DNA of 24,343 bases from positions 1 to 24,343 of the IMG/VR virus record IMGVR_UViG_3300029262_000082; one strand, given 5' to 3'. Position numbers and translations under genes: made by a program. How positions within the stretch are numbered: position 1 is the stretch's first letter; each line of letters begins with the position of its first letter. Below are positions 11,584-24,343 of the stretch, in pieces. The notes under the pieces were generated by a model. It saw only the letters and a program-made list of their open reading frames with translations, made no database searches and had not been told where the DNA came from. This DNA is from a virus.

Positions 11584-11585
11584 TT
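11556..11585 (-). promoter_or_regulatory. Putative phage RNA polymerase promoter, copy 1
   Basis: Exact 30-base copy of the element at 11500-11529, 56 bp away in direct orientation. It overlaps the last bases of the RNA polymerase stop codon. After the repeat the sequence reads GAGTTTC on the minus strand, so the predicted start point is a G in this copy and an A in the other. Confidence 0.55.
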
Positions 11586-13428
11586 ATACAAAGAATCGGT
11601 CAAGATTGTATAGTGTATCAGGCCTCCAACTGCCTAACGCTGGAGTTGGATCTAGCTTAATTGTGTATAAGTCCTCCCAGTAATCCTTTAGTTCATTTAG
11701 GTAATCCCTACTATAAAGCTCTACGAAAGTCCCAATAATTATCTTATAAAGAACATCCCTGTAGTTACAGTGGGTAGCAAACGAGTCATGGATAAATATC
11801 ATAGGCAAGCCTAACTCCTTCAAGCGTCTAGCAACCATCCTGAGGTGGGTAGCATCTAAGCTGTGTATTACATTAGGTGCAATGGCTGACTTGTGCTTGG
11901 CAGAGTTAGGTGTATCTACTGTAAAGTCTAGTATCTGTAACGTGAGTCTATCGCCACTACTTAACTTGCAGTCTAAGTCCAGTCTAGACCCCTTAACCTT
12001 CCTTTGCAAACAAGTAAACCCATCAGGAGTAGGCCAGCGTATCTCTACATTACCTATGTTTGAGATAGTATGGGCACAGTTACTTACCCAATCTACCGCT
12101 GCCTGTAGTGGACCTAGAGTAATGCTAAGCTGTCTGTATAGCTCACACCCCAGCCTGCTAGTCTCCCCTCTTTCTAGTCCCTCCCCTACCTTTACATACT
12201 CAAACAGATCTGGATCCCAGAACTGCTCAGCACCGAACAACTTACCCATGTGATCCATAGAGGTCATCATAGTTGCATTGTATCCCCAAGTCATAACAGG
12301 AATCTTAGTAGCCTTCCTAGTCGCCAAATACTGTTCCTCTGGCGGCAGTGTGTCCTTCCAATCGCTAGCTACCTTCTCATATATATCTAGCTCATGCTCT
12401 TCTTTATGCATGCCCAAATGCTTGGTAATAGCGTTTGATCTAACCACAGCAGACCAATGCTGTAAGCCAGAACACCTGCCGTCCAGTGGTATGAAGGCAG
12501 GTATAGCCTCCAAAGGATCAGCCAAATACCTACGGATAAGGTCGGCACAAGCCATGTAGCTGTAAGGTTTATCAGCTTTCTTCCATTCATTCTCGTAATT
12601 CTCTGGTTTTGATGCATGACTAGCCATCGTAAAAACATCCCAATCCTGCTCAGAGTATCCTCTTGCAGCTTCCTTCAGAGCTTCAAATCCATCCTCATTA
12701 AGTGGTAATGCGTAAGTAGGTATTAGTAGGGCCTTCTCATGATCTGCCCCTTGTGGAGTAAATCCGCATGTAGTATCTGTGTACATTCTTCCACGGCTAT
12801 CAAGAAAGTAAGGGAACTTAAACTTATCCTTGGCCATCTTATGAGCTGCCTTCATAGTCCTGTTATACATATAGTATGAACTGGACTTATCAAACTCTGG
12901 AGGAAACTTATCTATTAAGCTAAGTGTGAAGCTATTAATTTCAAACTCTTCTTGAGCCATATCAGATGTTATAGCAGATACTTCCCTATTCATGATATTG
13001 CCTACACCACCACGTATGGGCGCTCTAGGTATATCTTCACCAGCTAGCTTAGGATAGGAGATAGCACTTTCAGGCGCTCTCTCACAGTCTAACTCTAGCT
13101 CAAGGAACTTCTTAGTGGGCATTACTACCCTCTCGTCAAACCCTCTCTCTAGTGTTATGTACCCAGCTAACTCCATCTCACCCATGAACCTTAAAGCAAC
13201 ATTGAACGCGTCAGTAACTTCCAACATCTTACGTGCAATGCGGGGCACTACTGAGTGGAGGGGAAGTTCAAAGTGCAAAGGGAGTGAGTATAAGCAATGC
13301 AAGTAAGCTCTTTCCCACCTGCCATTCTTATCCTTATCCCACCTTCTCTGGTTAATATCATTAGGCCTAGCAAACCCTTTAGGTCTACAAGGCTCTGGCA
13401 ACATAATGCCGCCATCTAGATTGATCAT
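11584..13428 (-). CDS. Single-subunit T7-type RNA polymerase, short form
   Basis: 614 aa. The catalytic residues are all present: FPYFLDSRGRMY (about 205-216), DGRCSGLQH with Asp316, RKATKIPVMTWGYN with Arg371, Lys375 and Tyr383, and HDSF with Asp548. These match Asp537, Lys631, Tyr639 and Asp812 of the 883-aa T7 enzyme. The N-terminus is about 220 residues shorter than in T7 and seems to begin where T7 residue 255 or so lies (LPEPCRPKGF), so the AT-rich recognition loop and intercalating hairpin of the T7 N-terminal domain have no clear equivalent. AGGAGG stands before the ATG. It is the last gene of the replication block, directly before two repeated promoter-like elements and the late genes. 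Confidence 0.93.
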   Translation of the reverse strand: MINLDGGIMLPEPCRPKGFARPNDINQRRWDKDKNGRWERAYLHCLYSLPLHFELPLHSVVPRIARKMLEVTDAFNVALRFMGEMELAGYITLERGFDERVVMPTKKFLELELDCERAPESAISYPKLAGEDIPRAPIRGGVGNIMNREVSAITSDMAQEEFEINSFTLSLIDKFPPEFDKSSSYYMYNRTMKAAHKMAKDKFKFPYFLDSRGRMYTDTTCGFTPQGADHEKALLIPTYALPLNEDGFEALKEAARGYSEQDWDVFTMASHASKPENYENEWKKADKPYSYMACADLIRRYLADPLEAIPAFIPLDGRCSGLQHWSAVVRSNAITKHLGMHKEEHELDIYEKVASDWKDTLPPEEQYLATRKATKIPVMTWGYNATMMTSMDHMGKLFGAEQFWDPDLFEYVKVGEGLERGETSRLGCELYRQLSITLGPLQAAVDWVSNCAHTISNIGNVEIRWPTPDGFTCLQRKVKGSRLDLDCKLSSGDRLTLQILDFTVDTPNSAKHKSAIAPNVIHSLDATHLRMVARRLKELGLPMIFIHDSFATHCNYRDVLYKIIIGTFVELYSRDYLNELKDYWEDLYTIKLDPTPALGSWRPDTLYNLDRFFV

Positions 13429-13440
13429 GTTGCCTCCTAG

Positions 13441-14397
13441 TTAAACGTCAGATGTAGATTTATCGTGTCTTTCTTCTCCTACTTTAGGCAGTCTTAGCTT
13501 GCCCTTGCTAGACTCTTCTAGTGCATAGACTTGGAAGATCTTGCCAACTGGAGTATCTATGTTAGGGTGACTTGCACAATGATACATACTAGCAGCTAGC
13601 TCATGAGACCAGCCTTTCCCTAGCATACACTTGATAACTACACCTTCTTTCCACTTAAATAATAGGTTAGCTATCTTGCGTTTGTACTTACCCTTACCTT
13701 CTTCCCAGCCAATGCAAAGTAAGTCGTAGTCACAACCACGAACTATTTTCATTTTACGATAGCCTTTGTGTCCAGCCTCCCAGCCAGCAGATGGATCACA
13801 TATTACTATGCCTTCCTCGCCTCTTTCAGTTTGCTGGCCAGCCCATAGACGAATTAGCTCTTCAGACTCTACTTCGTGTGTTGGCAGTACATGAACCCAA
13901 GGACTTCTACTCGATTTACGATAACGATCAGTTAAGTTCTCGTGTCGAGTTTGGAAAGGAGTCTGGTCATAACCTTTGATAAATGCCTTAGTACTTACCA
14001 TGTCATAGAAAAACATTTCTAAGTCAATAGCAATGTACTGCTGTTCTTTATTTAGGTCTTTAGTCCTATTAGGGTTAACTATGCCTGACATTACCTCAAG
14101 GGATACTGACTTGTTAACCATCTCACCAAAGTACGCACCATCTCGAAAGTCCATACTAGTTATTGAATGCTCAAGTGCCCAAGTATTAGTAAATCGCTTA
14201 CCAGTCCTGCTCCAAATAGTAGCAAGCCCATTAAGGATAACTACAATTGCACACACACCATCTTTCTTGACTTGCAGTGAAAATACCTTACCAGTCTTAT
14301 TCTTCTCCACTACTTCATCCCAATTCTTTACTAGTTGGGTAGTTTTATTTGCCTTGCGGTAATCTTTACTAAGGCCAAATACTTCGAATATGTTCAT
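13441..14397 (-). CDS. ATP-dependent DNA ligase
   Basis: 318 aa. Nucleotidyltransferase motifs are visible in order: motif I VKKDGV with the adenylated Lys at 44, SRTGK at 63-67, motif III GEMV with Glu92, motif IV EEGIVI at about 194-199, and motif V MKIVRG with Lys217. The C-terminal part (about 221-318) would be the OB-fold domain. It is slightly shorter than T7 ligase (359 aa) and has no extra N-terminal DNA-binding domain. It would seal nicks during replication and recombination. AGGGG precedes the ATG. The gene lies in the block with exonuclease and endonuclease VII, the partners expected for repair of replication intermediates. Confidence 0.9.
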   Translation of the reverse strand: MNIFEVFGLSKDYRKANKTTQLVKNWDEVVEKNKTGKVFSLQVKKDGVCAIVVILNGLATIWSRTGKRFTNTWALEHSITSMDFRDGAYFGEMVNKSVSLEVMSGIVNPNRTKDLNKEQQYIAIDLEMFFYDMVSTKAFIKGYDQTPFQTRHENLTDRYRKSSRSPWVHVLPTHEVESEELIRLWAGQQTERGEEGIVICDPSAGWEAGHKGYRKMKIVRGCDYDLLCIGWEEGKGKYKRKIANLLFKWKEGVVIKCMLGKGWSHELAASMYHCASHPNIDTPVGKIFQVYALEESSKGKLRLPKVGEERHDKSTSDV

Positions 14398-16106: not shown

Positions 16107-16787
16107 TTAAAACATTGATTCATCATCAGCGTCATTGGCTTCACTGTCATCATTAGATCCTTCTGCTAATGCATCCATATCAGCTTCGTCCAACTCACTA
16201 AGGCCTAAAGAATCTAAATCTTCTTCACCACCACCACCAGAGAACTCAACTAACTCCTCTACGCATACTAGGTGTGGGTATAAGTATAGGCCAAACTTAG
16301 TCTCTACTGGGCGGAATTGGAACTTACCTTTAGTGCCATGTCCAACATTTGTACTTTGGTCAATAGTTATACCGTTATTGTCTTGTACTTTACCTTTGAT
16401 ACCAATTTGCTTAATAGGGTAAGAAGGACGACGAGAACCTTTCTTACCTACTAATGCAGATTGGCTGAACTTAAGAAGCATCATATCATCTTCTAGGTCT
16501 TCTGCATGCAAGAAGTCATACTTTTCTAGTAAGGATTCTTTATCATGCTCTTTAGCATTTGGTAGGTTCTTAGCACCTTTAAAGCTTTTCTTTAGCTTCT
16601 TAAAGCGCTCTTCTGAAATCAGTATCTTGACTTCATAAGAATGGAATTCGAGTGGGTCATCTGACATTGGTGGCTTATTATCTTCATTGAGCTGCTCTAC
16701 TGCATTTGATACAGAAGTGTACATGAAGATTACGTTATGCATTGTCTGAATGTTAGTTTCTTTCTTTTCTGCTGTTTGCTTAGTCAT
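16107..16787 (-). CDS. Single-stranded DNA-binding protein, T7 gp2.5-like
   Basis: 226 aa, close to the 232 aa of T7 gp2.5. The OB-fold region holds EVKILISEERFKKLKK, a DDMMLLKFSQSALVG segment and a GHGTKGKFQFRPVE block (about residues 148-162) leading to LYLYPHLVCVEELVEF. The C-terminus from about residue 184 is a long acidic tail ending in Phe226, the hallmark by which gp2.5-type proteins contact the polymerase and helicase. It coats ssDNA during replication and recombination. It is followed by a hairpin that may lower read-through. A weak GAGAG stands before the ATG, so expression may rely on a strong upstream start point. Confidence 0.87.
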   Translation of the reverse strand: MTKQTAEKKETNIQTMHNVIFMYTSVSNAVEQLNEDNKPPMSDDPLEFHSYEVKILISEERFKKLKKSFKGAKNLPNAKEHDKESLLEKYDFLHAEDLEDDMMLLKFSQSALVGKKGSRRPSYPIKQIGIKGKVQDNNGITIDQSTNVGHGTKGKFQFRPVETKFGLYLYPHLVCVEELVEFSGGGGEEDLDSLGLSELDEADMDALAEGSNDDSEANDADDESMF

Positions 16788-16821
16788 GTTTAGTTCTCTC
16801 GTAGGGTTGGGTTAGTTTATA

Positions 16822-16881
16822 TATAAGGTTGCTGACAGATCAGGCCAGCGCTGAGTAGAGTTTAAGGATCTACACCTTATA
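16822..16881. repeat. 8-bp inverted repeat spanning the dUTPase/SSB gap
   Basis: TATAAGGT at 16822-16829 and ACCTTATA at 16874-16881 are exact reverse complements, 44 bases apart, the second arm overlapping the dUTPase stop. Between them lies a GC-richer part with the palindrome CAGCGCTG. A TATATA on the minus strand near 16820-16825 could serve as a -10 box, but there is no good -35 hexamer. An 8-bp match over this distance may be chance. Confidence 0.3.
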
Positions 16882-17341
16882 ATTCTTTACACACAGTCCA
16901 AGGTAAGGCACAGCAGGGACATAGTACACTTCCTGCCTTATTGATTCCTGTACTACCAAAACCACCTTCGCGCTCTGTTTTAATATCTTCTCCCATGTAG
17001 CATGGCATAATAACAATCTGTGCAATACGGTCACCTTTTTCGAACTTAAAGGCTTTCTCCCTATGAAGGTTACGTAGGATTACTCCTATATCTTCACGGT
17101 AGTCCACATCAATAACACCAGCCATAACGTCCATGCTGTGCTTGTATGCTAATCCTGACCGTGGCTTAATCATGCCAAACCACAAGCCAGTCATGCTATC
17201 CGAAAAAGTAATGCCTGTCTTAATAAGCAATTGCTCTCCAGCGTATATAGTCCCACGTCCTAGTGCGTGCAAGTCATATCCAGCACTACCTTGAGTAGCC
17301 CTTGCAGGTATTATCGCATCATCATGTAATTTCTTAAACAT
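16877..17341 (-). CDS. dut: dUTP diphosphatase (dUTPase), trimeric type, with Cys-rich tail
   Basis: 154 aa. All five motifs are present: I GSAGYDL (18-24), II PRSGLA (60-65), III GVIDVDYREDIGV (75-87) with the catalytic Asp, IV GDRIAQIV (103-110) and V GGFGSTG (126-132). The enzyme hydrolyses dUTP to dUMP and pyrophosphate, which prevents uracil incorporation and supplies dUMP to the neighbouring ThyX. Motif V usually ends the protein, but here 22 residues follow, containing a cysteine cluster CPCC-x6-C (about 141-151), possibly a metal site. AAGGAGG precedes the ATG. It is downstream of the reductase genes in one operon-like run. Confidence 0.92.
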   Translation of the reverse strand: MFKKLHDDAIIPARATQGSAGYDLHALGRGTIYAGEQLLIKTGITFSDSMTGLWFGMIKPRSGLAYKHSMDVMAGVIDVDYREDIGVILRNLHREKAFKFEKGDRIAQIVIMPCYMGEDIKTEREGGFGSTGINKAGSVLCPCCALPWTVCKEL

Positions 17342-17363
17342 TGGATCCTCCTTAGTTTATTAG

Positions 17364-19055
17364 TTAGCTTGCACAACTCTCGCAAGCACCCTTACTAGCA
17401 TCCACACCAGCCTTACTTCTCAGGTAGTATAGGGATTTAATATTTTCATCTTCAAATGCGTACTGATGCACATAAGCAATGTAACGTTCGTCTTCATCTG
17501 CTGCGAAGAATAAGTTACAACTCTGGCCTTGGCAAATGTACTTCTGTCTGCGGCTATACGAATCAATGATAGATATCTGGTTAATCTCAAAAGCTGTAAG
17601 TAGTACATCCTTTTCTAATCTAGATAGGAAGTCTAAGTTCTTTACAGATCCGCCATCAGCTAGCACTTCTTTGAGTATCTCGTTTGAGTACATGCCATGC
17701 TTCTTTAGTATGCCTACAAACACAGGATTTACTCTGAACATTTGACCAGAGGCTGAACCTTCTTCGTATACATTTCCATACCAAGGAGTATTACCTTGTG
17801 ACTCTGAGCCAAAGATTAAAGCAGAGCTTACGTTAGGTGCTAGGGCAGTTCGGTGTGTGTTACGTACTCCATAACCTTTACACCAATCAGGCTCTCCCCA
17901 CCACTTAGCCATCCACTGTGAAGCTTTTAGGCTTTCATCATGTATATGTTTATACACTTCCATATTAAACCTATGGGCATCTAAGCTATCCCAAGGAAGC
18001 ATTCTTTGCTGTAGGGCTGAATGGTAGCCTGTTGTTCCTAAGCCTATAGCTCGGCCCTTCTCAGTACCTTTTACTATCTTTTCAAGTCCAGGGATCTCTC
18101 TAGCTAGATCCAGGAATTCAGTAACAAGGCAATCTAGAAATACAGTCATACAGAATACAGCATCAGTGTCTTTCCACTCGTCAAAAGTAGTAAGTACCAT
18201 ACCTGATAGGACACATGTGTAGCTATGCTCTTCATCTTGATGCAAGGTAATCTCAGTGCATAAGTTACTAGCTAGGCTCTTTAGCCCAAGGTCTTTATAC
18301 ATTGGAGGTTGCATTCTCTCAACTTTATCAGGGAAGTAATAGTATCCCCTACCAGTTAAGCACTTTAAGTATTGTGTTTCTTGGAAGCGATTAACAGCTT
18401 CTTTTACGCCTTTGTTTAACTCAGCAATGTCAGCATCAAAATAGTTCCAACCCACATTACTACCGTCAGGATTATGTTTAACTTCATGTGCAATCTCGTA
18501 AAAGTCTCCATGAGATATCGGTACATAACCCGCCCAAGCACCCCTACGTGTACTACCTTGACTAATATTGTCAGCCATAAGTACCATATCTTTAAATACA
18601 GGTAAGATCCCATCTGCTGTTCCTCCTCTTGATATAATTGAGCCCCTAGGTCTGATTGAACCTAAGTGCGCACTAGTCCCAAAACCCTCTTGAGATAATA
18701 TTGATGCTTCTAATCTAGCCATGCCGAATTGGAACACACTGTCACCAATCTCGCTGCCAGAGCAAGACACAGACAAGCCTCTTGAAGTACCTGTATTAGC
18801 TAGTACAGGTGTTGCTAGATAAGCATGCCCTTTCATAAGCATTTCTTTCCAACGCACTGCCATGTAAGGTCCAGTTACCCCAGCATGAGCACTTACGGTA
18901 CTTACTATACGGTCTATTTGCTCTTCATAGGTGTTAGCCTTATACAAATACTTACCTTTAAAAGCTTGCCAACCCATAGTAGTAAACCACTCAGGCAGCT
19001 TGCCTTCTTTTTGTAGCTTCTTACGTTCATCTGATAATTCTTCAAACAAGCTCAT
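17364..19055 (-). CDS. nrdA: Ribonucleoside-diphosphate reductase alpha subunit (class I), short
   Basis: 563 aa, against about 760 for E. coli NrdA; the N-terminal ATP-cone domain is missing, so dATP feedback inhibition is probably absent. Active-site residues are visible: Cys98 in SVSCSGS, NLCTEI with Asn264, Cys266 and Glu268, and Cys281 in YTCVLSG. The radical-transfer Tyr pair is SLYYLRS (543-544), and the C-terminal reducing pair is CESC (558, 561). The enzyme reduces ribonucleotides to deoxyribonucleotides with the beta subunit encoded just upstream (14-base overlap). A glutaredoxin-like gene lies before beta. A class I assignment rests on the adjacent beta gene, the Tyr pair and the C-terminal Cys pair. 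Confidence 0.92.
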   Translation of the reverse strand: MSLFEELSDERKKLQKEGKLPEWFTTMGWQAFKGKYLYKANTYEEQIDRIVSTVSAHAGVTGPYMAVRWKEMLMKGHAYLATPVLANTGTSRGLSVSCSGSEIGDSVFQFGMARLEASILSQEGFGTSAHLGSIRPRGSIISRGGTADGILPVFKDMVLMADNISQGSTRRGAWAGYVPISHGDFYEIAHEVKHNPDGSNVGWNYFDADIAELNKGVKEAVNRFQETQYLKCLTGRGYYYFPDKVERMQPPMYKDLGLKSLASNLCTEITLHQDEEHSYTCVLSGMVLTTFDEWKDTDAVFCMTVFLDCLVTEFLDLAREIPGLEKIVKGTEKGRAIGLGTTGYHSALQQRMLPWDSLDAHRFNMEVYKHIHDESLKASQWMAKWWGEPDWCKGYGVRNTHRTALAPNVSSALIFGSESQGNTPWYGNVYEEGSASGQMFRVNPVFVGILKKHGMYSNEILKEVLADGGSVKNLDFLSRLEKDVLLTAFEINQISIIDSYSRRQKYICQGQSCNLFFAADEDERYIAYVHQYAFEDENIKSLYYLRSKAGVDASKGACESCAS

Positions 19056-20064
19056 TATATTCTCTTCCTTCTAATCCGCCAACTGTCCACACAAACTCTG
19101 ACTTAGTCCAATCTCTATTGTAAGAAGATCCAACCTTTGCAAAGAAGTCATGTTGAATATCTCCACCAATCATCTTGTAAAACCAATCAATGATTGGTGA
19201 GTCAGCTTTTGAGTATTGAGGCTCGAATCCAAGCTGCCCTATTACTAAGTTTAGTCTGTGCCTAACAAAAGACTTGAGCTGCTCAGCACTAATACCTTCT
19301 ATCTCTCCTTCAGAAAAGATCATGGATATAATAGCACATTCATGTCTGTATATATGATCTGCTACTTCGTAAATATCTTGCTCTAGCTTGTCTACATCTT
19401 TATACCCTGCTTCTGTCATTTCTTCAAGAAGAGTATTAAATGCCCATGCACCACCTTCACTATGCAGGTTTTCATCTTTAACCGAGAAGGTTAGTCCTGA
19501 GTGAATTTGTGCAATTTTATTCTTGCCGTTAGCTTGGAAGTGCATTAAGAAGGCAAAACTACTATACAATATAGCTCCCTCTACCATAGAGAAAGCTGCT
19601 ACAGATAATAGGTCATTCTTACTTGACACTACATCATCTAAGAAGTCCATACGAGACTTTAGGACAGGATCGTTTGTGAAGCTTGAGTAGAATGAGTCAG
19701 TGTTTAAACCTAGTAATTCATCTACTCGCTGGTAGAAAGGGCCATGTACATTAAGCTCTGTATTTGCAAAAGCCATAGCCATTCTGTTAAAGTCTGGACG
19801 AGGGAAAATTCTCATGAACTTACCTCCCCAGTACTCCTTGCCTGCTACTATCTCGTATAGGGTAAATAACTTTAAAGAAGTCATAACACCATGAAGCTCA
19901 GGCTTAGTTAACTCAGTTTTAATGCAGTGTAGATCCTTTTCTACTTTTGGCTCAGTAGGCAGCCAGAATATTTTAGCTTGCGCCTCAGCAGCTAACACTG
20001 CTGTTGGGTAGTCGTAAGTAGGAATATACTTAGGTGTTTGACATTGTACTTTTCTAGTATCCAT
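19042..20064 (-). CDS. nrdB: Ribonucleoside-diphosphate reductase beta subunit (class I)
   Basis: 340 aa ferritin-like protein. Probable metal ligands are Glu71 (in LYEIVAG, where E. coli has Asp84), Glu103 and His107 (TELNVHGPFY), Glu162 (SMVEGAI), and Glu198 with His201 (KDENLH). Tyr111 is four residues after His107, the spacing of the radical Tyr122 in E. coli. The first pair is E-x-x-x-H instead of the usual E-x-x-H. The subunit generates the radical needed by the alpha subunit, which follows with a 14-base overlap. The gene begins 11 bases inside the glutaredoxin gene. The sequence resembles the compact reductases common in marine phages, which is remembered rather than searched. Confidence 0.91.
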   Translation of the reverse strand: MDTRKVQCQTPKYIPTYDYPTAVLAAEAQAKIFWLPTEPKVEKDLHCIKTELTKPELHGVMTSLKLFTLYEIVAGKEYWGGKFMRIFPRPDFNRMAMAFANTELNVHGPFYQRVDELLGLNTDSFYSSFTNDPVLKSRMDFLDDVVSSKNDLLSVAAFSMVEGAILYSSFAFLMHFQANGKNKIAQIHSGLTFSVKDENLHSEGGAWAFNTLLEEMTEAGYKDVDKLEQDIYEVADHIYRHECAIISMIFSEGEIEGISAEQLKSFVRHRLNLVIGQLGFEPQYSKADSPIIDWFYKMIGGDIQHDFFAKVGSSYNRDWTKSEFVWTVGGLEGREYNELV

Positions 20065-20278
20065 TTAAGCTTTCCAAGAAAGGTTTAATTTGTTCACGCC
20101 CTACCAGTAACTCTGTATCATTAACTACTAGTGTAGGTAGCTTAGTAAATTGTCCTACAGGACAGGTATCAACATCTACATCAAGGATACGTACATCTTT
20201 GACTTTATGAGACACCATCCACTTCTTTAACTCAGTACATGGCTTACACCAGTCTGCTGTGTATAATACTAATTTCAT
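20054..20278 (-). CDS. Glutaredoxin / thioredoxin-like protein
   Basis: 74 aa, a minimal thioredoxin fold: strand KLVLYTADW, redox motif CKPC (Cys11, Cys14), helix, then cis-Pro at about 48 in KLPTLVV and a GREQIKPFLESL helix. The active site WCKPC is closer to thioredoxin (WCGPC) and the length to glutaredoxin. It overlaps ribonucleotide reductase beta by 11 bases and most likely reduces the C-terminal Cys pair of the alpha subunit. A role as a polymerase processivity factor, like host thioredoxin for T7, is possible but unsupported. The start overlaps the ThyX stop by 4 bases. Confidence 0.85.
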   Translation of the reverse strand: MKLVLYTADWCKPCTELKKWMVSHKVKDVRILDVDVDTCPVGQFTKLPTLVVNDTELLVGREQIKPFLESLNGY

Positions 20279-21159
20279 TGTTGACCTCCTTCAATTATGC
20301 TTCTGTGCTGTGCCCAACCTTTAAAGTTACTCTTGTGTACACCATAAAAATCAGGTGTAGCTTGGTGTTCAAACGGTGAAGCGTGAACAGGTTTAGAGTT
20401 AACTAGTTTATCGTATATATTGTTTGCTTTTGTTAAGGAGTCATCAAGTACTCTATAGCTGACTTGTGCACAACAGGAAGATGATACTTTAAGTGCCTCT
20501 TCAAAAGTTAGTTGAGTGCCTGTTCCTGCTAAATAGTATTCCATAACTCCACCAAATTCATGTGGTACGTATACCCTATCTACATAAGGAACATGCCAAA
20601 ATCCTGGGCTAATAGGTATTATGTTACCTTCATCAACAGAAGTTTCCATAGTACTTTTCATTTCGTTTGCTAATACTCTAATTTCTGGCTGTGCATCCTT
20701 ATGGCATCGTAGGCTAAAGAAGTTATCAAACTCTGTAGCAGATACAATAGTCTTCATCATTTGAAAAGGCTCAAGCACTCGGTTAACTATTTGCTTATGC
20801 AACCCTAATTTATTTAATCTAATGGCAGAATTAACTGCACTTCTTGCTGCTACATCCCATTCAAACTTTGCTCTTTCAACTCCTTTCTCAACTCCACATA
20901 TGACATGAGATATTTCTTCATCTGCTTGCATTCCTGCTTTATTAGCTCCCCAGTGAACAGGCATAGCAGGATTATTAGTGACCTGCTCTATCATTTTTTC
21001 TATAGGGATTGCTCTTGAGCTTGCTGCATTTCTAGAAAAGACGCGGTGAGTCATTAGTTCCCCATGAATGAACCTTGGATACTCCAACTCCAGTGTAGTG
21101 AGTCGCTTATTGCTTTTTGTGCAGTAACTATCTTGTATTACTTTAGCTGTTATTTGCAT
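20275..21159 (-). CDS. thyX: Flavin-dependent thymidylate synthase
   Basis: 294 aa. The ThyX signature is THRVFSRNAASSR (37-49), differing from the classic R-H-R-x7-S by Thr in place of the first Arg. The enzyme makes dTMP from dUMP with FAD, NADPH and methylene-tetrahydrofolate. Later conserved parts are visible: EFDNFFSLRCHKDAQPEIR (about 143-161) and ASPFEHQATPD (about 261-271), which carries the late ThyX His/Glu block. The protein is longer than the 220-250 aa usual for bacterial ThyX. The ATG is 3 bases after the DUF5664 gene stop. Together with dUTPase and reductase it gives the phage its own dTTP supply. Confidence 0.92.
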   Translation of the reverse strand: MQITAKVIQDSYCTKSNKRLTTLELEYPRFIHGELMTHRVFSRNAASSRAIPIEKMIEQVTNNPAMPVHWGANKAGMQADEEISHVICGVEKGVERAKFEWDVAARSAVNSAIRLNKLGLHKQIVNRVLEPFQMMKTIVSATEFDNFFSLRCHKDAQPEIRVLANEMKSTMETSVDEGNIIPISPGFWHVPYVDRVYVPHEFGGVMEYYLAGTGTQLTFEEALKVSSSCCAQVSYRVLDDSLTKANNIYDKLVNSKPVHASPFEHQATPDFYGVHKSNFKGWAQHRSIIEGGQQ

Positions 21160-21162
21160 GGT

Positions 21163-21468
21163 TTATCTCTCCCCAAAGGTTGCTAGAAACACAGCGTTAC
21201 AAGTAATGTGATCTACATGAGGCAAGCCAGACTCTGCATCAAGTATCTCACCATTAGCAACAGCTTGCATATGTCTTAGCAAACTATCCATTACCTCATT
21301 AATTGGAAATCCATTCTTCCAGTTGTTTCTATCATACTTGTCAGCACCAAAGGCAAATACTTGGCACATACCATTCATTGCCACACTAGCATCTAGCATG
21401 TAACTTAGTTGTGGCTTGCCAGAATTAAAGCGCATTCCCTGTGTTGCATCATCTACTTTTTCTTTCAT
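21163..21468 (-). CDS. DUF5664 protein, dATP/dGTP diphosphohydrolase-like (MazG-related)
   Basis: 101 aa. The protein shows the DUF5664 pattern: GKPQLSYM (17-24), FGADKYDRNNWKNG (40-53), LLRHMQAVANGE (63-74) and LDAESGLPHVDH (76-87). The acidic and His residues of a MazG-like, all-helical (d)NTP pyrophosphohydrolase are present. Members of this family are labelled dATP/dGTP diphosphohydrolases, and a relative, MazZ, supplies dGMP for 2-aminoadenine (Z) DNA synthesis. No PurZ gene is in this window, so only the general nucleotide-pool role is supported. The start overlaps a 35-aa gene by 4 bases (ATGA), and ThyX follows 3 bases after the stop. Confidence 0.82.
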   Translation of the reverse strand: MKEKVDDATQGMRFNSGKPQLSYMLDASVAMNGMCQVFAFGADKYDRNNWKNGFPINEVMDSLLRHMQAVANGEILDAESGLPHVDHITCNAVFLATFGER

Positions 21469-21572
21469 AATCTATTATTCCTTAAGTTCAGAGTATCGGC
21501 TATCACCTTCTTAACCCACTTGTCAATGTCTAACTCCTTCCTAGAAGGTTTGCCACTAATGAATTGCTGCAT
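21465..21572 (-). CDS. Hypothetical 35-aa protein
   Basis: 35 aa, MQQFISGKPSRKELDIDKWV and on. The ATG lies within the last codons of the DNA polymerase gene in another frame, with GGAG 6 bases upstream; the stop overlaps the DUF5664 start by 4 bases (ATGA). The sequence is basic with a probable helix at DIDKWVKKVIADTL. It bridges the gap between polymerase and DUF5664 and may act as a coupling leader as much as a functional protein. It is too short for a family call, so the gene itself is moderately supported. Confidence 0.55.
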   Translation of the reverse strand: MQQFISGKPSRKELDIDKWVKKVIADTLNLRNNRL

Positions 21573-23517
21573 AGCTATCTCCAAAGTCTATATCACAATC
21601 AAGCTCCCTGTTTAAGCATAGCTCTTCATTAACATCTTTAATGGAATTCTTTAATATCTTAATCATAGCATCCCTATTCCCCTTCTTAAGGTTTAGTATT
21701 AGCTCATCATGGAACTGTCCAGTTAACTGAGGGCGTCTAAGTAGTACATAGTGTAGCCATCGGTCGAAGCAATAAGTAGCTGTACTCTGATTCAATGTAC
21801 TAAACTTATCCTTCTCAGCCTTCAGGAATATCCATAGCTTAGCTACAGGGTTCCATAGCCACTTCATACCACGAGATTGCTTAACTTCACACTCATTTGC
21901 AATAGCAGCAATAGACCAATTACGTTTCCAGTATGCTTCAAACAGTTGATTACCGATAGCTTCATCAACACCAGCAGCCCTAGCAATAGTAGGGCCAGTA
22001 GCTCCATACGTAGCAGCATAGTTACATCCTTTACCACCATGCCGTAAAAGAGACATTGCACTGTGCACTTTAGCTTGCTCGGTAGTATGATTACCTTTAT
22101 CAAATGCTTTATATAGCTCAGTCTGTTCAAAGCTAAGCAGTCCAGCAGCCATACACATATCCAAGTGAGGATCGAATCCTTCAGTCATCATATCCCTAAC
22201 ATAGTCAGGATCATGCTTCCACATGAAATGCTGCTTAGTTCTATCCTCTATCGAGGCCATGTCAGAACCACATAACTCATGGTCATCATCACTAGCCAGT
22301 AATAAGCCACGTAGTAGTGCACCATAAGGAGTACGAGTACTAGGAATGTTTAGGCATATCTTGTGCTTGAATCGTAAGGTATTAGTTAACCCTTGAATAG
22401 AAGCTGTTACATAGCCATCTTCATCTACATTCATTAGCCAAGTATTAGTGATAGTCTTTCTGTGGGTTACAATAGACAACTCTTTCAAGTGCTCCAATGC
22501 TGGACAGTCAGCAATCAATCTTACGATAGAATCACATAGCATCTTTGTCTCTTGGTTCTTAATCTGAGGTACAGGAGTAACCTTGTTGGTTGCCTTGTCT
22601 CTCTTATACTTAAAAGACTCTGGCACCCAACCCATGGAGTATAGCCAATCCTTAACTTGTATGTGGGAACCAGCATTAGGCTCTGCATAGCTGGATATGT
22701 ACTTGAACTCTTTAGTGATCGTAGCTAGTATATTCTTAGGGTCGTCATCAAAGTCATACTCTTCAGGATCTCTATGAGCTATTACTTTATCTACCCACTT
22801 CTGACCATTGGCAGATATATCACCATTCATCTTGAAAGCTTTGGCAGGATAGTTAGCTGTTGTGTATTGTGGTACTTTAGGCATACCAGTTTGGAGTGCA
22901 TCCTTAGACACAACCATCTTACCAGAAAACATTGCATCAGCTTCTTTGCAAGTTGGTAAATCTAGCTTCCATCTAGCCTTTTCCTGCAATGCTGCACAAC
23001 GGGCCTTAAAGTTAAGGTGCCTTATAGCATGCCAGCACCTTTCTGAGCTTCCATACAGAAGCATCAAGTGATTCCACATATCTTTCCACAATGCTGTCTG
23101 TATTTTTGTATCTTCTTCACAGCGATGTATATACTCTTTAAGGGATAGGTTCTCCCAATCATTTATCTCTGGCTTAGGAATGCCTAGGTCTTCACCATGT
23201 GAGGCTAGGCCATGTAAGGTACGTTTAGGGTACAAGTACCAAGATAGAAATAGGGTATCAATGATCTCTGCCTTAACTTCTATTCCTCCAACCTTAGTTA
23301 TAGCTGGTCCATCATAAGCAATGCCATTATGCATCACTAGTATGTTATCGGGATCTTGGAACATCTCGTTTATCTTAACTTGGCTTATGAGTGTAAACTT
23401 GCGCAGGGTATTCATATGCGGATCTAGCTCATTGTTTGACATGCACCATATCTTGGTAACGCCAGCTAGCAAGTCGTCTGCTTCTATGTCCGAGCAATAC
23501 ATTCTCTTCTTAGTCAT
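21556..23517 (-). CDS. DNA polymerase I family (family A), T7-like
   Basis: 653 aa. The 3'-5' exonuclease has Exo I SDIEADDL (Asp10, Glu12), Exo II HNGIAYD (Asp69) and an Exo III-like EEDTKIQ (Asp136), where the usual Tyr four residues earlier is Arg132. The polymerase domain has motif A GSDMASIEDR (Asp419), motif B RHGGKGCNYAATYG (Arg492, Lys496, Tyr500) and motif C QFHDEL (His603, Asp604, Glu605). Tyr500 corresponds to E. coli Pol I residue 762 and to T7 Tyr526, a state associated with fast lytic phages. There is no 5'-3' exonuclease domain. It is shorter than T7 polymerase (704 aa), so a full thioredoxin-binding insertion may be absent. It replicates the genome with the adjacent helicase. 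Confidence 0.93.
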   Translation of the reverse strand: MTKKRMYCSDIEADDLLAGVTKIWCMSNNELDPHMNTLRKFTLISQVKINEMFQDPDNILVMHNGIAYDGPAITKVGGIEVKAEIIDTLFLSWYLYPKRTLHGLASHGEDLGIPKPEINDWENLSLKEYIHRCEEDTKIQTALWKDMWNHLMLLYGSSERCWHAIRHLNFKARCAALQEKARWKLDLPTCKEADAMFSGKMVVSKDALQTGMPKVPQYTTANYPAKAFKMNGDISANGQKWVDKVIAHRDPEEYDFDDDPKNILATITKEFKYISSYAEPNAGSHIQVKDWLYSMGWVPESFKYKRDKATNKVTPVPQIKNQETKMLCDSIVRLIADCPALEHLKELSIVTHRKTITNTWLMNVDEDGYVTASIQGLTNTLRFKHKICLNIPSTRTPYGALLRGLLLASDDDHELCGSDMASIEDRTKQHFMWKHDPDYVRDMMTEGFDPHLDMCMAAGLLSFEQTELYKAFDKGNHTTEQAKVHSAMSLLRHGGKGCNYAATYGATGPTIARAAGVDEAIGNQLFEAYWKRNWSIAAIANECEVKQSRGMKWLWNPVAKLWIFLKAEKDKFSTLNQSTATYCFDRWLHYVLLRRPQLTGQFHDELILNLKKGNRDAMIKILKNSIKDVNEELCLNRELDCDIDFGDSYAAIH

Positions 23518-23545
23518 AATAGTTTCTCTTTAGTTAGTTGTTAGA

Positions 23546-23689
23546 CTACAGCCACACACCATCACCAGCATATATCAGGCCATCGTCTATGTCTTCATCT
23601 CTGTACACTTCTAAGTCATCACGAACTTTCTTCGGTCTTACTTCATCGTCTTGAGATACCTCTTCAGGCTTAATTAATTTATTTGTCAT
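23546..23689 (-). CDS. Hypothetical 47-aa acidic protein
   Basis: 47 aa, MTNKLIKPEEVSQDDEVRPK and on, ending DGVWL, highly charged with an acidic middle. It lies in the gap between the helicase stop and the polymerase start. The upstream sequence has only a weak AAGTGG, so translation may be modest. No membrane segment or Cys is visible. The family is not recognised. An acidic end with a terminal hydrophobic VWL suggests a possible protein-protein contact peptide, but this is only a guess. Confidence 0.55.
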   Translation of the reverse strand: MTNKLIKPEEVSQDDEVRPKKVRDDLEVYRDEDIDDGLIYAGDGVWL

Positions 23690-23701
23690 ATTGTATGCCA
23701 C

Positions 23702-24343
23702 TTATCTTTTACGTTTGTCTTCGTTCAAAAGCTCACCTTCCCATGAATATTCTGCTATCCTTCCAGTTGTTGCATCATACCTTGTTCTGATTTGGCCTTC
23801 TCCCCCGAATTTTCTGTTCTTAATTACCCCGAAGATAGAGTGATTCTTATCCATCCCAGTCCCATCTGCATGTTTGTTTCTCATGAAGCTCATTAGCATA
23901 GGGAAGCTTCTCATTATACCTTTAGATCCAGTAAACTGGCTGGCAAATACTTCTGCTCCTTCCTCATGACTTGGCCCAAACTTAGGTGTATTTAAGTGGG
24001 AGTAGGTCATTATATGTAAGCCCAGTTGAGCTGCTAGCCCTTCTATTTCTGAGGCATACTTGTTAATGAATTCATTGGCTGATCCAGTATCTAAATGATC
24101 TACTAGTCTCGTCCAGTTATCTAGGTAGATAAACTTAACACCATACTCTAGTGCATTAAATCGAATGGCTGAGATTATCTCTTCCATGTCGAATCGCATA
24201 GCTTGATCTTCGTCTGACTCCCATAGGTATAGCTTGTTTTGTAATCCTTCTGCTGTTGCTATCAGTTGTTCTTGCTCATACTCAGCTTTAGGATTGTTGT
24301 AAGGCACTCCATCTATCTGAGCACATATAGCTCGTAGTGTGTA
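23702..24343 (-). CDS. Replicative DNA helicase, DnaB/gp4-type RecA core, partial
   Basis: 214 codons open to the right window edge; a GTG inside (at 24307) is not the true start because the frame continues to the edge. Visible motifs: Walker B KFIYLDNWTRLV, a TYSHLNTP motif whose His fits the T7 gp4 His465 position, SHEEG, and GSKGIMRSFPML, where the Arg fits the gp4 arginine finger Arg522. It ends with IKNRKFGGEGQIRTRYDATTGR, the usual gp4/DnaB C-terminal block (given here as about residues 177-198 of the visible part). It would unwind DNA for the adjacent polymerase. The Walker A motif and any primase domain lie outside the window. Homology is seen in sequence and function inferred from the family. 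Confidence 0.85.
   Translation of the reverse strand, partial: YTLRAICAQIDGVPYNNPKAEYEQEQLIATAEGLQNKLYLWESDEDQAMRFDMEEIISAIRFNALEYGVKFIYLDNWTRLVDHLDTGSANEFINKYASEIEGLAAQLGLHIMTYSHLNTPKFGPSHEEGAEVFASQFTGSKGIMRSFPMLMSFMRNKHADGTGMDKNHSIFGVIKNRKFGGEGQIRTRYDATTGRIAEYSWEGELLNEDKRKR

Follow-up and report, generated by a model that had tools for sequence, protein, structure and literature searches.

The 101-residue DUF5664 protein encoded by this viral DNA is probably a dNTP diphosphohydrolase that controls the nucleotide pool of a phage with ordinary DNA. Pool control, one of two roles proposed by the first-pass annotation, is the best-supported reading on the basis of homology to the assayed enzyme of Arthrobacter phage Wayne (PMC12884076), and the position of the gene within an operon for dNTP synthesis, the activity itself being predicted. 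The small helical enzyme would cleave selected dNTPs to the corresponding dNMP and pyrophosphate, homology suggesting dATP as the first substrate, followed by dUTP and dGTP. Probably translated together with ThyX, a thioredoxin, class I ribonucleotide reductase (RNR) and dUTPase, it would trim the pool made by the reductase, keeping dATP (and dGTP) from overshooting, and could also supply dUMP for ThyX. The phage polymerase would thereby receive balanced dNTPs, and the phage DNA would be expected to carry the ordinary four bases.

The DUF5664 gene and its operon

The window, meaning the whole 24,343-base virus record that was analysed, matched none of 50,697 phage records by megablast, a set from which the records of the window's own genome were possibly excluded. 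As it is colinear with two 57-kb contigs (G001, 57,480 bases, in which 19 of 29 window genes were matched with their order kept; and likewise G002, 57,544 bases), the window probably represents under half of the full genome. The gene had been placed at 21163-21468, and these coordinates hold; the open reading frame (ORF) runs from ATG to TAA on the minus strand, with four stops on the plus strand of the same interval. The proposed family was also borne out. The protein scored 82.8 bits against PF18909 (Pfam cut-off 27), covering profile positions 2-89 of 99, and this was its sole Pfam match at E 0.01; it also matched phrog_801, 'dATP / dGTP pyrophosphohydrolase', and has close relatives at 60-75% identity in other viral contigs. 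PF18909 (dATP/dGTP diphosphohydrolase, N-terminal; dGTP_diPhyd_N) is the DUF5664 family of PMC12884076. The gene is therefore a real but ordinary member of a known family, and it lies among the following features.

21556..23517, minus strand: family A DNA polymerase (PolA), 653 aa, upstream of DUF5664 (PF00476 3e-9)
21465..21572, minus strand: 35-codon ORF, read from the sequence, overlapping the polymerase end and the DUF5664 start (ATGA)
21163..21468, minus strand: DUF5664 / PF18909 protein, 101 aa, domain-only form, predicted dNTP diphosphohydrolase (PF18909 1.9e-23; phrog_801 1.4e-26; AlphaFold mean pLDDT 93.3)
20275..21159, minus strand: ThyX, flavin-dependent thymidylate synthase, 294 aa (PF02511 2.6e-12; phrog_85 2.9e-88)
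20054..20278, minus strand: thioredoxin/glutaredoxin-like protein, 74 aa (PF00085 2.6e-4, under the Pfam cut-off)
19042..20064, minus strand: NrdB, class I ribonucleotide reductase small chain (PF00268 1.5e-38)
17364..19055, minus strand: NrdA, ribonucleotide reductase large chain, 563 aa (PF02867 9.7e-62; PF00317 4.1e-6, just under the cut-off)
16877..17341, minus strand: dUTPase, 154 aa (PF00692 4e-23)

The order along the minus strand is PolA, DUF5664, ThyX, thioredoxin-like, NrdB, NrdA, dUTPase and SSB, with successive gaps of 87, 3, -4, -11, -14, 22 and 89 nt. Since the internal gaps are small or overlapping (-14 to 22 nt), the genes from DUF5664 to dUTPase form one packed six-gene run, in which ThyX starts 3 nt past the DUF5664 stop, and the thioredoxin-like ORF overlaps the ThyX stop by 4 nt. 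The proposed linkage to ThyX, reductase, dUTPase and a family A polymerase thus stands, with Pfam matches over or near their cut-offs (the thioredoxin-like protein falling under). The ATP-cone family was not among the Pfam matches of NrdA at E 0.01. Judged from the sequence, the ATGA overlap of the 35-codon ORF possibly serves coupled translation with DUF5664. Sigma-70-like matches in 16700-23800 numbered 14, relative to a shuffle mean of 19.5; showing no excess, they are uninformative on promoters.

Elsewhere in the window, 11584-13428 (minus strand) encodes a single-subunit (T7-type) RNA polymerase of 614 aa, of which residues 182-605 align to PHROG 414 and the first 181 do not; its identity to named-phage proteins was 24-29% among the best 10 of 2477 records. 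The colinear 57-kb relatives contain the Baseplate_J, Dit-like and DUF3383 families, with two members each, a gene content that suggests phages with a contractile tail and an RNA polymerase of the T7 type.

Many Pseudomonas phage records call their DUF5664 proteins 'endolysin', and PHROGs 2252 and 5033 also misname the family, in what is apparently a spreading misannotation; one case of an annotated 'lysin' that resembles dATP/dGTP diphosphohydrolases is given in PMC11267937. These names alone would make the window protein a lysis protein or an RNA polymerase inhibitor. Such a role can be given next to no credence, as PF18909 is the sole Pfam match, far over its cut-off, the gene sits in a nucleotide operon, and the 'lysin' of PMC11267937 itself resembles these hydrolases.

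Conserved residues, fold and predicted activity

The Wayne protein is the only stand-alone DUF5664 for which assays were found in the literature covered. It converts dATP, dUTP and dGTP to monophosphates (PMC12884076), with a kcat of 0.48 per s for dATP, and apparent values of 0.22 and 0.053 per s for dUTP and dGTP respectively (PMC12884076 Table 1); the S50 for dUTP is 12.5 uM (PMC12884076). The assayed protein has 198 residues, with PF18909 at 98-195 as its sole Pfam match, and was aligned to the DUF5664 family profile by hhalign with 98.8% probability (E 5e-17, the Wayne side being a single sequence). Its BLASTP alignment with the window protein has 37% identity over 63 residues.

Family-wide conservation was assessed from the 101 records in which DUF5664 was found, which after leaving out 10 duplicates or fragments gave 91 rows, 79 of them distinct. 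Considering columns in which one residue occupies more than 60% of the 79 rows, Wayne and Acinetobacter phage SH-Ab 15497 both share G41, K44, Y45, N49, W50, G53, R65, H66, G73, E74, D77, E79, G81, H84 and L95 of the window protein. K44, Y45, N49, R65 and H66 are identical in all 79 rows, and D77 in 76. The window protein retains a set of residues that are invariant or nearly so among its relatives (K18, K44, Y45, N49, W50, R65, H66, D77, E79 and H84), as defined from a 65-row alignment (A2) without Wayne and SH-Ab, and the 79-row alignment with both. Some positions that hardly vary among the window's relatives, for example K18, H87 and N91, are not kept in Wayne. The substrate choice of the window protein could differ from that of Wayne's, as identity is only 37%, and the 97 residues that precede the Wayne domain are missing from the window protein.

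The AlphaFold model of the 101-aa protein is mainly helical (mean pLDDT 93.3), and places the conserved acids E74, D77 and E79 between helices 56-71 and 84-98. Its best structural match was AF_0060 (2P06; Z 7.9, rmsd 3.7, 77 aligned residues; Foldseek E 2.0), which is listed under all-alpha NTP pyrophosphatases (PMC4030988), followed by DCTPP1/RS21-C6 and MazG-related chains at Z of about 4. Foldseek returned no match at E 0.001, and middling Z values are common among helical bundles; the modelled likeness to an NTP-pyrophosphatase fold is weak and only suggestive. Searches by sequence of solved structures found no relative of DUF5664, with phmmer giving only trypsin-inhibitor matches at E 0.13 or worse, and the family profile none. 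The weak resemblance to DCTPP1 and MazG-related chains is also what would favour a house-cleaning function, in which the enzyme removes damaged or non-canonical purine dNTPs (oxidised or deaminated) in the manner of MazG or DCTPP1-type enzymes. That function seems improbable, as the Wayne homologue acts well on the canonical nucleotides dATP and dUTP (PMC12884076).

The protein had also been called 'MazZ-related', a label that is accurate only in the sense that some Z-phages carry DUF5664 fused to a MazZ-type domain: Acinetobacter phage SH-Ab 15497 joins PF18909 (residues 3-98) to PF04447 (170-244). No similarity to MazZ or DUF550 themselves was detected. The hhalign probabilities of the DUF5664 profile were 0.2% against S-2L MazZ and 0.96% against the SH-Ab DUF550 stretch, with one side a single sequence in each comparison. 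The metal ligands of S-2L MazZ are E34, E35, E38, E50 and D53, with E34 not conserved (PMC8342488); the corresponding ExxE...ExxD and EExxE...ExxD patterns are both absent from the window protein. ExxE...ExxD occurred in 8 of the 79 family rows; of the controls, S-2L MazZ and SH-Ab DUF550 had it, and the weakly MazG-like protein from contig L005 did not. The stricter EExxE...ExxD occurred in none of the 79, and is too strict, as it missed the SH-Ab DUF550 control as well. Allowing any acids at these places does not discriminate, because this pattern matches 42 of the 79 rows, including the window, and all three controls. No evidence was found for identifying the window protein as a MazZ, with which it shares neither the ExxE...ExxD motif nor profile similarity.

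Tentatively, DUF5664 may constitute a branch of its own among small helical nucleotide diphosphohydrolases, with a catalytic site of the form K-Y-(x3)-N-W, R-H and E-x-x-D-x-E-(x4)-H in place of the MazG-type ExxE...ExxD; in ordinary-DNA phages it might act as a general valve for dATP and dUTP, coupled with ThyX and ribonucleotide reductase, and have later been taken up by Z-phages more than once. We consider this whole scheme possible rather than probable. The domain-only 101-aa form, whose conserved residues differ from the MazG pattern, offers a compact protein in which to find the catalytic residues.

Linkage to ThyX and the replication block

Of 15 records, reached for the most part by way of PolA and DUF5664, 12 contained PF18909. 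Across the 12 columns of the gene-match table, eight have a close DUF5664 match, and a PolA homologue lies upstream in seven of these; the eighth, a 10-kb stretch of Alteromonas phage vB_AmeM_PT11-V22, has no PolA match. After DUF5664 comes class I RNR in G001 and ThyX in L086 and L109, while G002 and L094 have at this place a different RNR, with no match to NrdB. Since PolA stays upstream while the following genes vary, DUF5664 goes with the block for replication and dNTPs, and not just with ThyX. The stretch ahead of the domain in the called ORF also varies: among close relatives it is 62-130 aa long in L003, L004, L005, L093, L094 and L086, and no more than about 25 aa in L092, L104, L105 and L109, as in the window. 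L005 also encodes a weak MazG-like protein (13032-13442; hmmscan E 0.0049, under the Pfam cut-off) directly behind NrdA, a place occupied in the window by the dUTPase (16877-17341), which may represent a swap of nucleotide hydrolases.

Linkage was quantified relative to random placement of DUF5664 within each locus. Four rows (L099, L100, L002 and L111) were left out, the remainder clustered to 67, and 62 of these had a locatable ORF; dropping the five that were fetched through ThyX or PolA (L078, L067, L057, L088 and L098) gave 57 loci, the window included. ThyX was present in 14 of the 57 representative loci, and within 2 kb of DUF5664 in 12 of the 14, where 4.7 were expected. Outside the window's clade, it lay within 2 kb on either side in six of eight (2.8 expected, tail 0.016), a tail that is optimistic because the loci are related, several of them are short, and some of the ThyX queries derived from neighbours of DUF5664. 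ThyX was the commonest Pfam family in the two genes downstream of DUF5664 (8/117 proteins; upstream, 4/117), which also included the RNR barrel (4/117) and dCTP-deaminase-like proteins (3/117), in neighbour sets that retain the five loci fetched through ThyX or PolA. Linkage with ThyX, RNR and PolA is therefore recurrent.

This excess near ThyX over random position, and its lead among the downstream families, raise the alternative that the main role of DUF5664 is conversion of dUTP to dUMP for ThyX, as a second dUTPase. The 3 nt that separate the two window genes fit such a role, as does the use of dUTP by the Wayne enzyme at an S50 of 12.5 uM (PMC12884076). It would nevertheless be redundant, because the window already has a dUTPase within the same operon; furthermore, a ThyX match is absent, though DUF5664 is kept, from the whole records of G001 and G002 and the 16 kb of L104, and the kcat of the Wayne enzyme is higher for dATP than for dUTP (PMC12884076). 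Hence dUMP supply is unlikely to be the main function, and control of the dNTP pool as a whole is preferred.

The Z-DNA pathway and known DUF5664 systems

DUF5664 also occurs in the Z-phages Wayne and SH-Ab 15497 (PMC12884076), as well as in two IMG/VR contigs with PurZ and DatZ (L132 and L163), and the window is only a fragment of its genome. The phage could accordingly be one with Z-DNA, in which DUF5664 would serve a PurZ pathway, encoded in the missing part of the genome, by producing dGMP or by removing dATP. The telling gene is PurZ. Family searches for adenylosuccinate synthetase (PurA/PurZ) and for DatZ found neither in the window, with controls matched, in agreement with the first-pass annotation that neither PurZ nor a dATPase is present there; this absence alone says little, because the window is less than half the length of its 57-59 kb relatives. 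The window belongs to a 10-row clade of the 79-row DUF5664 tree (support 99/96), which contains none of the four Z-phage rows tested. The tree has only 103 columns, a bootstrap that had yet to settle, and long branches for Wayne and SH-Ab, making deeper placement unsure.

PurZ was absent from all ten other clade records: nine by family search (G001, G002, G003, G004, G008, G012, G013, G017 and G021, where G002 stands for a tree row merged with the identical domain of L094), and L105, the last of the ten, by tblastn searches with two different queries for PurZ. Three of these records are long, at 57,480, 57,544 and 58,993 bases. The PurA/PurZ family search across 16 records, including the window, was positive in four: Wayne, SH-Ab, and the records of L132 and L163. 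In these four Z-phage loci, no more than about 1.2 kb separates PurZ from DUF5664, whereas the window has no PurZ in the 2.9 kb to one side of the gene or in the 21 kb to the other. We therefore set the Z-DNA reading aside as very improbable, upholding the earlier view that it is not supported.

Other components of the pathway were less informative. The DatZ/YfbR search was negative for the window, G001, G002 and G017, and positive for 3 of 11 records (SH-Ab, L132 and L163). That for DUF550 found 2 of 10 records (SH-Ab over the cut-off, and the record of L163 under it), with none in the three 57-59 kb relatives. These absences are weaker evidence, counting only against a PurZ-type system, because Wayne, a PurZ0 phage, was negative for both as well. 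A tblastn search with the SH-Ab fusion protein matched the window in the DUF5664 half only, with no DUF550 part. The MazG family search had no match in the window and one positive among 14 records; it is not fully sensitive, because it missed the weak MazG-like protein of L005. The window polymerase showed no significant similarity to its SH-Ab counterpart (best E 0.36). A Pfam scan (E 1e-4) of 79 ORFs, out of the 129 that reach 70 aa in the two 57-kb relatives, identified 17 families, none a recognisable base-modification enzyme. The suggestion of base modification thus finds no backing in the PurA/PurZ, DatZ/YfbR and MazG searches of the window, the PurZ searches of the ten clade records, the polymerase, or the DUF5664 lineage, which is apart from the four Z-phage DUF5664s tested.

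Beyond this clade, a window-like DUF5664 was found in 685 of the 50,697 named-phage records (duplicates counted), and a gene like SH-Ab PurZ in 214 at E 1e-5 (207 with the Wayne query), such that SH-Ab-like PurZ is missing from at least 471 of the 685. As most named-phage records with DUF5664 therefore lack a PurZ match, the enzyme is likely to be general in dNTP balance, and to have been co-opted by Z-phages. Hence DUF5664 beside ThyX, RNR and a family A polymerase is by itself no sign of 2-aminoadenine DNA. In the uncultured contigs L132 (3398-5611) and L163 (5765-8303), PurZ and DatZ accompany a DUF5664 without a fused DUF550, and the record of L163 has a separate MazG/DUF550-like match. 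Their DUF5664s group with that of L120 (88/85, not strong), away from Wayne and SH-Ab, and perhaps represent a further acquisition in Z-phages, as far as their sequences indicate.

Four known systems come closest to the window protein. The Wayne protein (ALY10775.1, DUF5664-1) shares its Pfam family and core residues, with DUF5664 likewise the only Pfam domain; unlike the window, Wayne is a PurZ0 Z-phage, and its protein carries a 97-residue stretch ahead of the domain, missing from the window protein, and occupies a separate place on a long branch of the tree. The N-terminal domain of the SH-Ab 15497 fusion has the same core residues, although there it is fused to DUF550 beside PurZ and DatZ, neither of which was found in the window. 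S-2L MazZ has been assayed for the removal of pyrophosphate from purine dNTPs (PMC8342488), the reaction predicted for the window protein, but differs in having no profile similarity (0.2%), and an ExxE...ExxD motif that the window protein lacks. The best named-phage match is ORF53 of Alteromonas phage vB_AmeM_PT11-V22 (58.6% identity over 86% of the query), a 92.8-kb phage of the genus Myoalterovirus, whose whole record has no PurZ or DatZ match. ORF53 is not adjacent to thymidylate synthase, and the PT11-V22 thymidylate synthase has no match to the window ThyX; nevertheless, the annotation downstream of ORF53 includes, at about 2-5 kb, a thioredoxin, this thymidylate synthase and the two RNR subunits.
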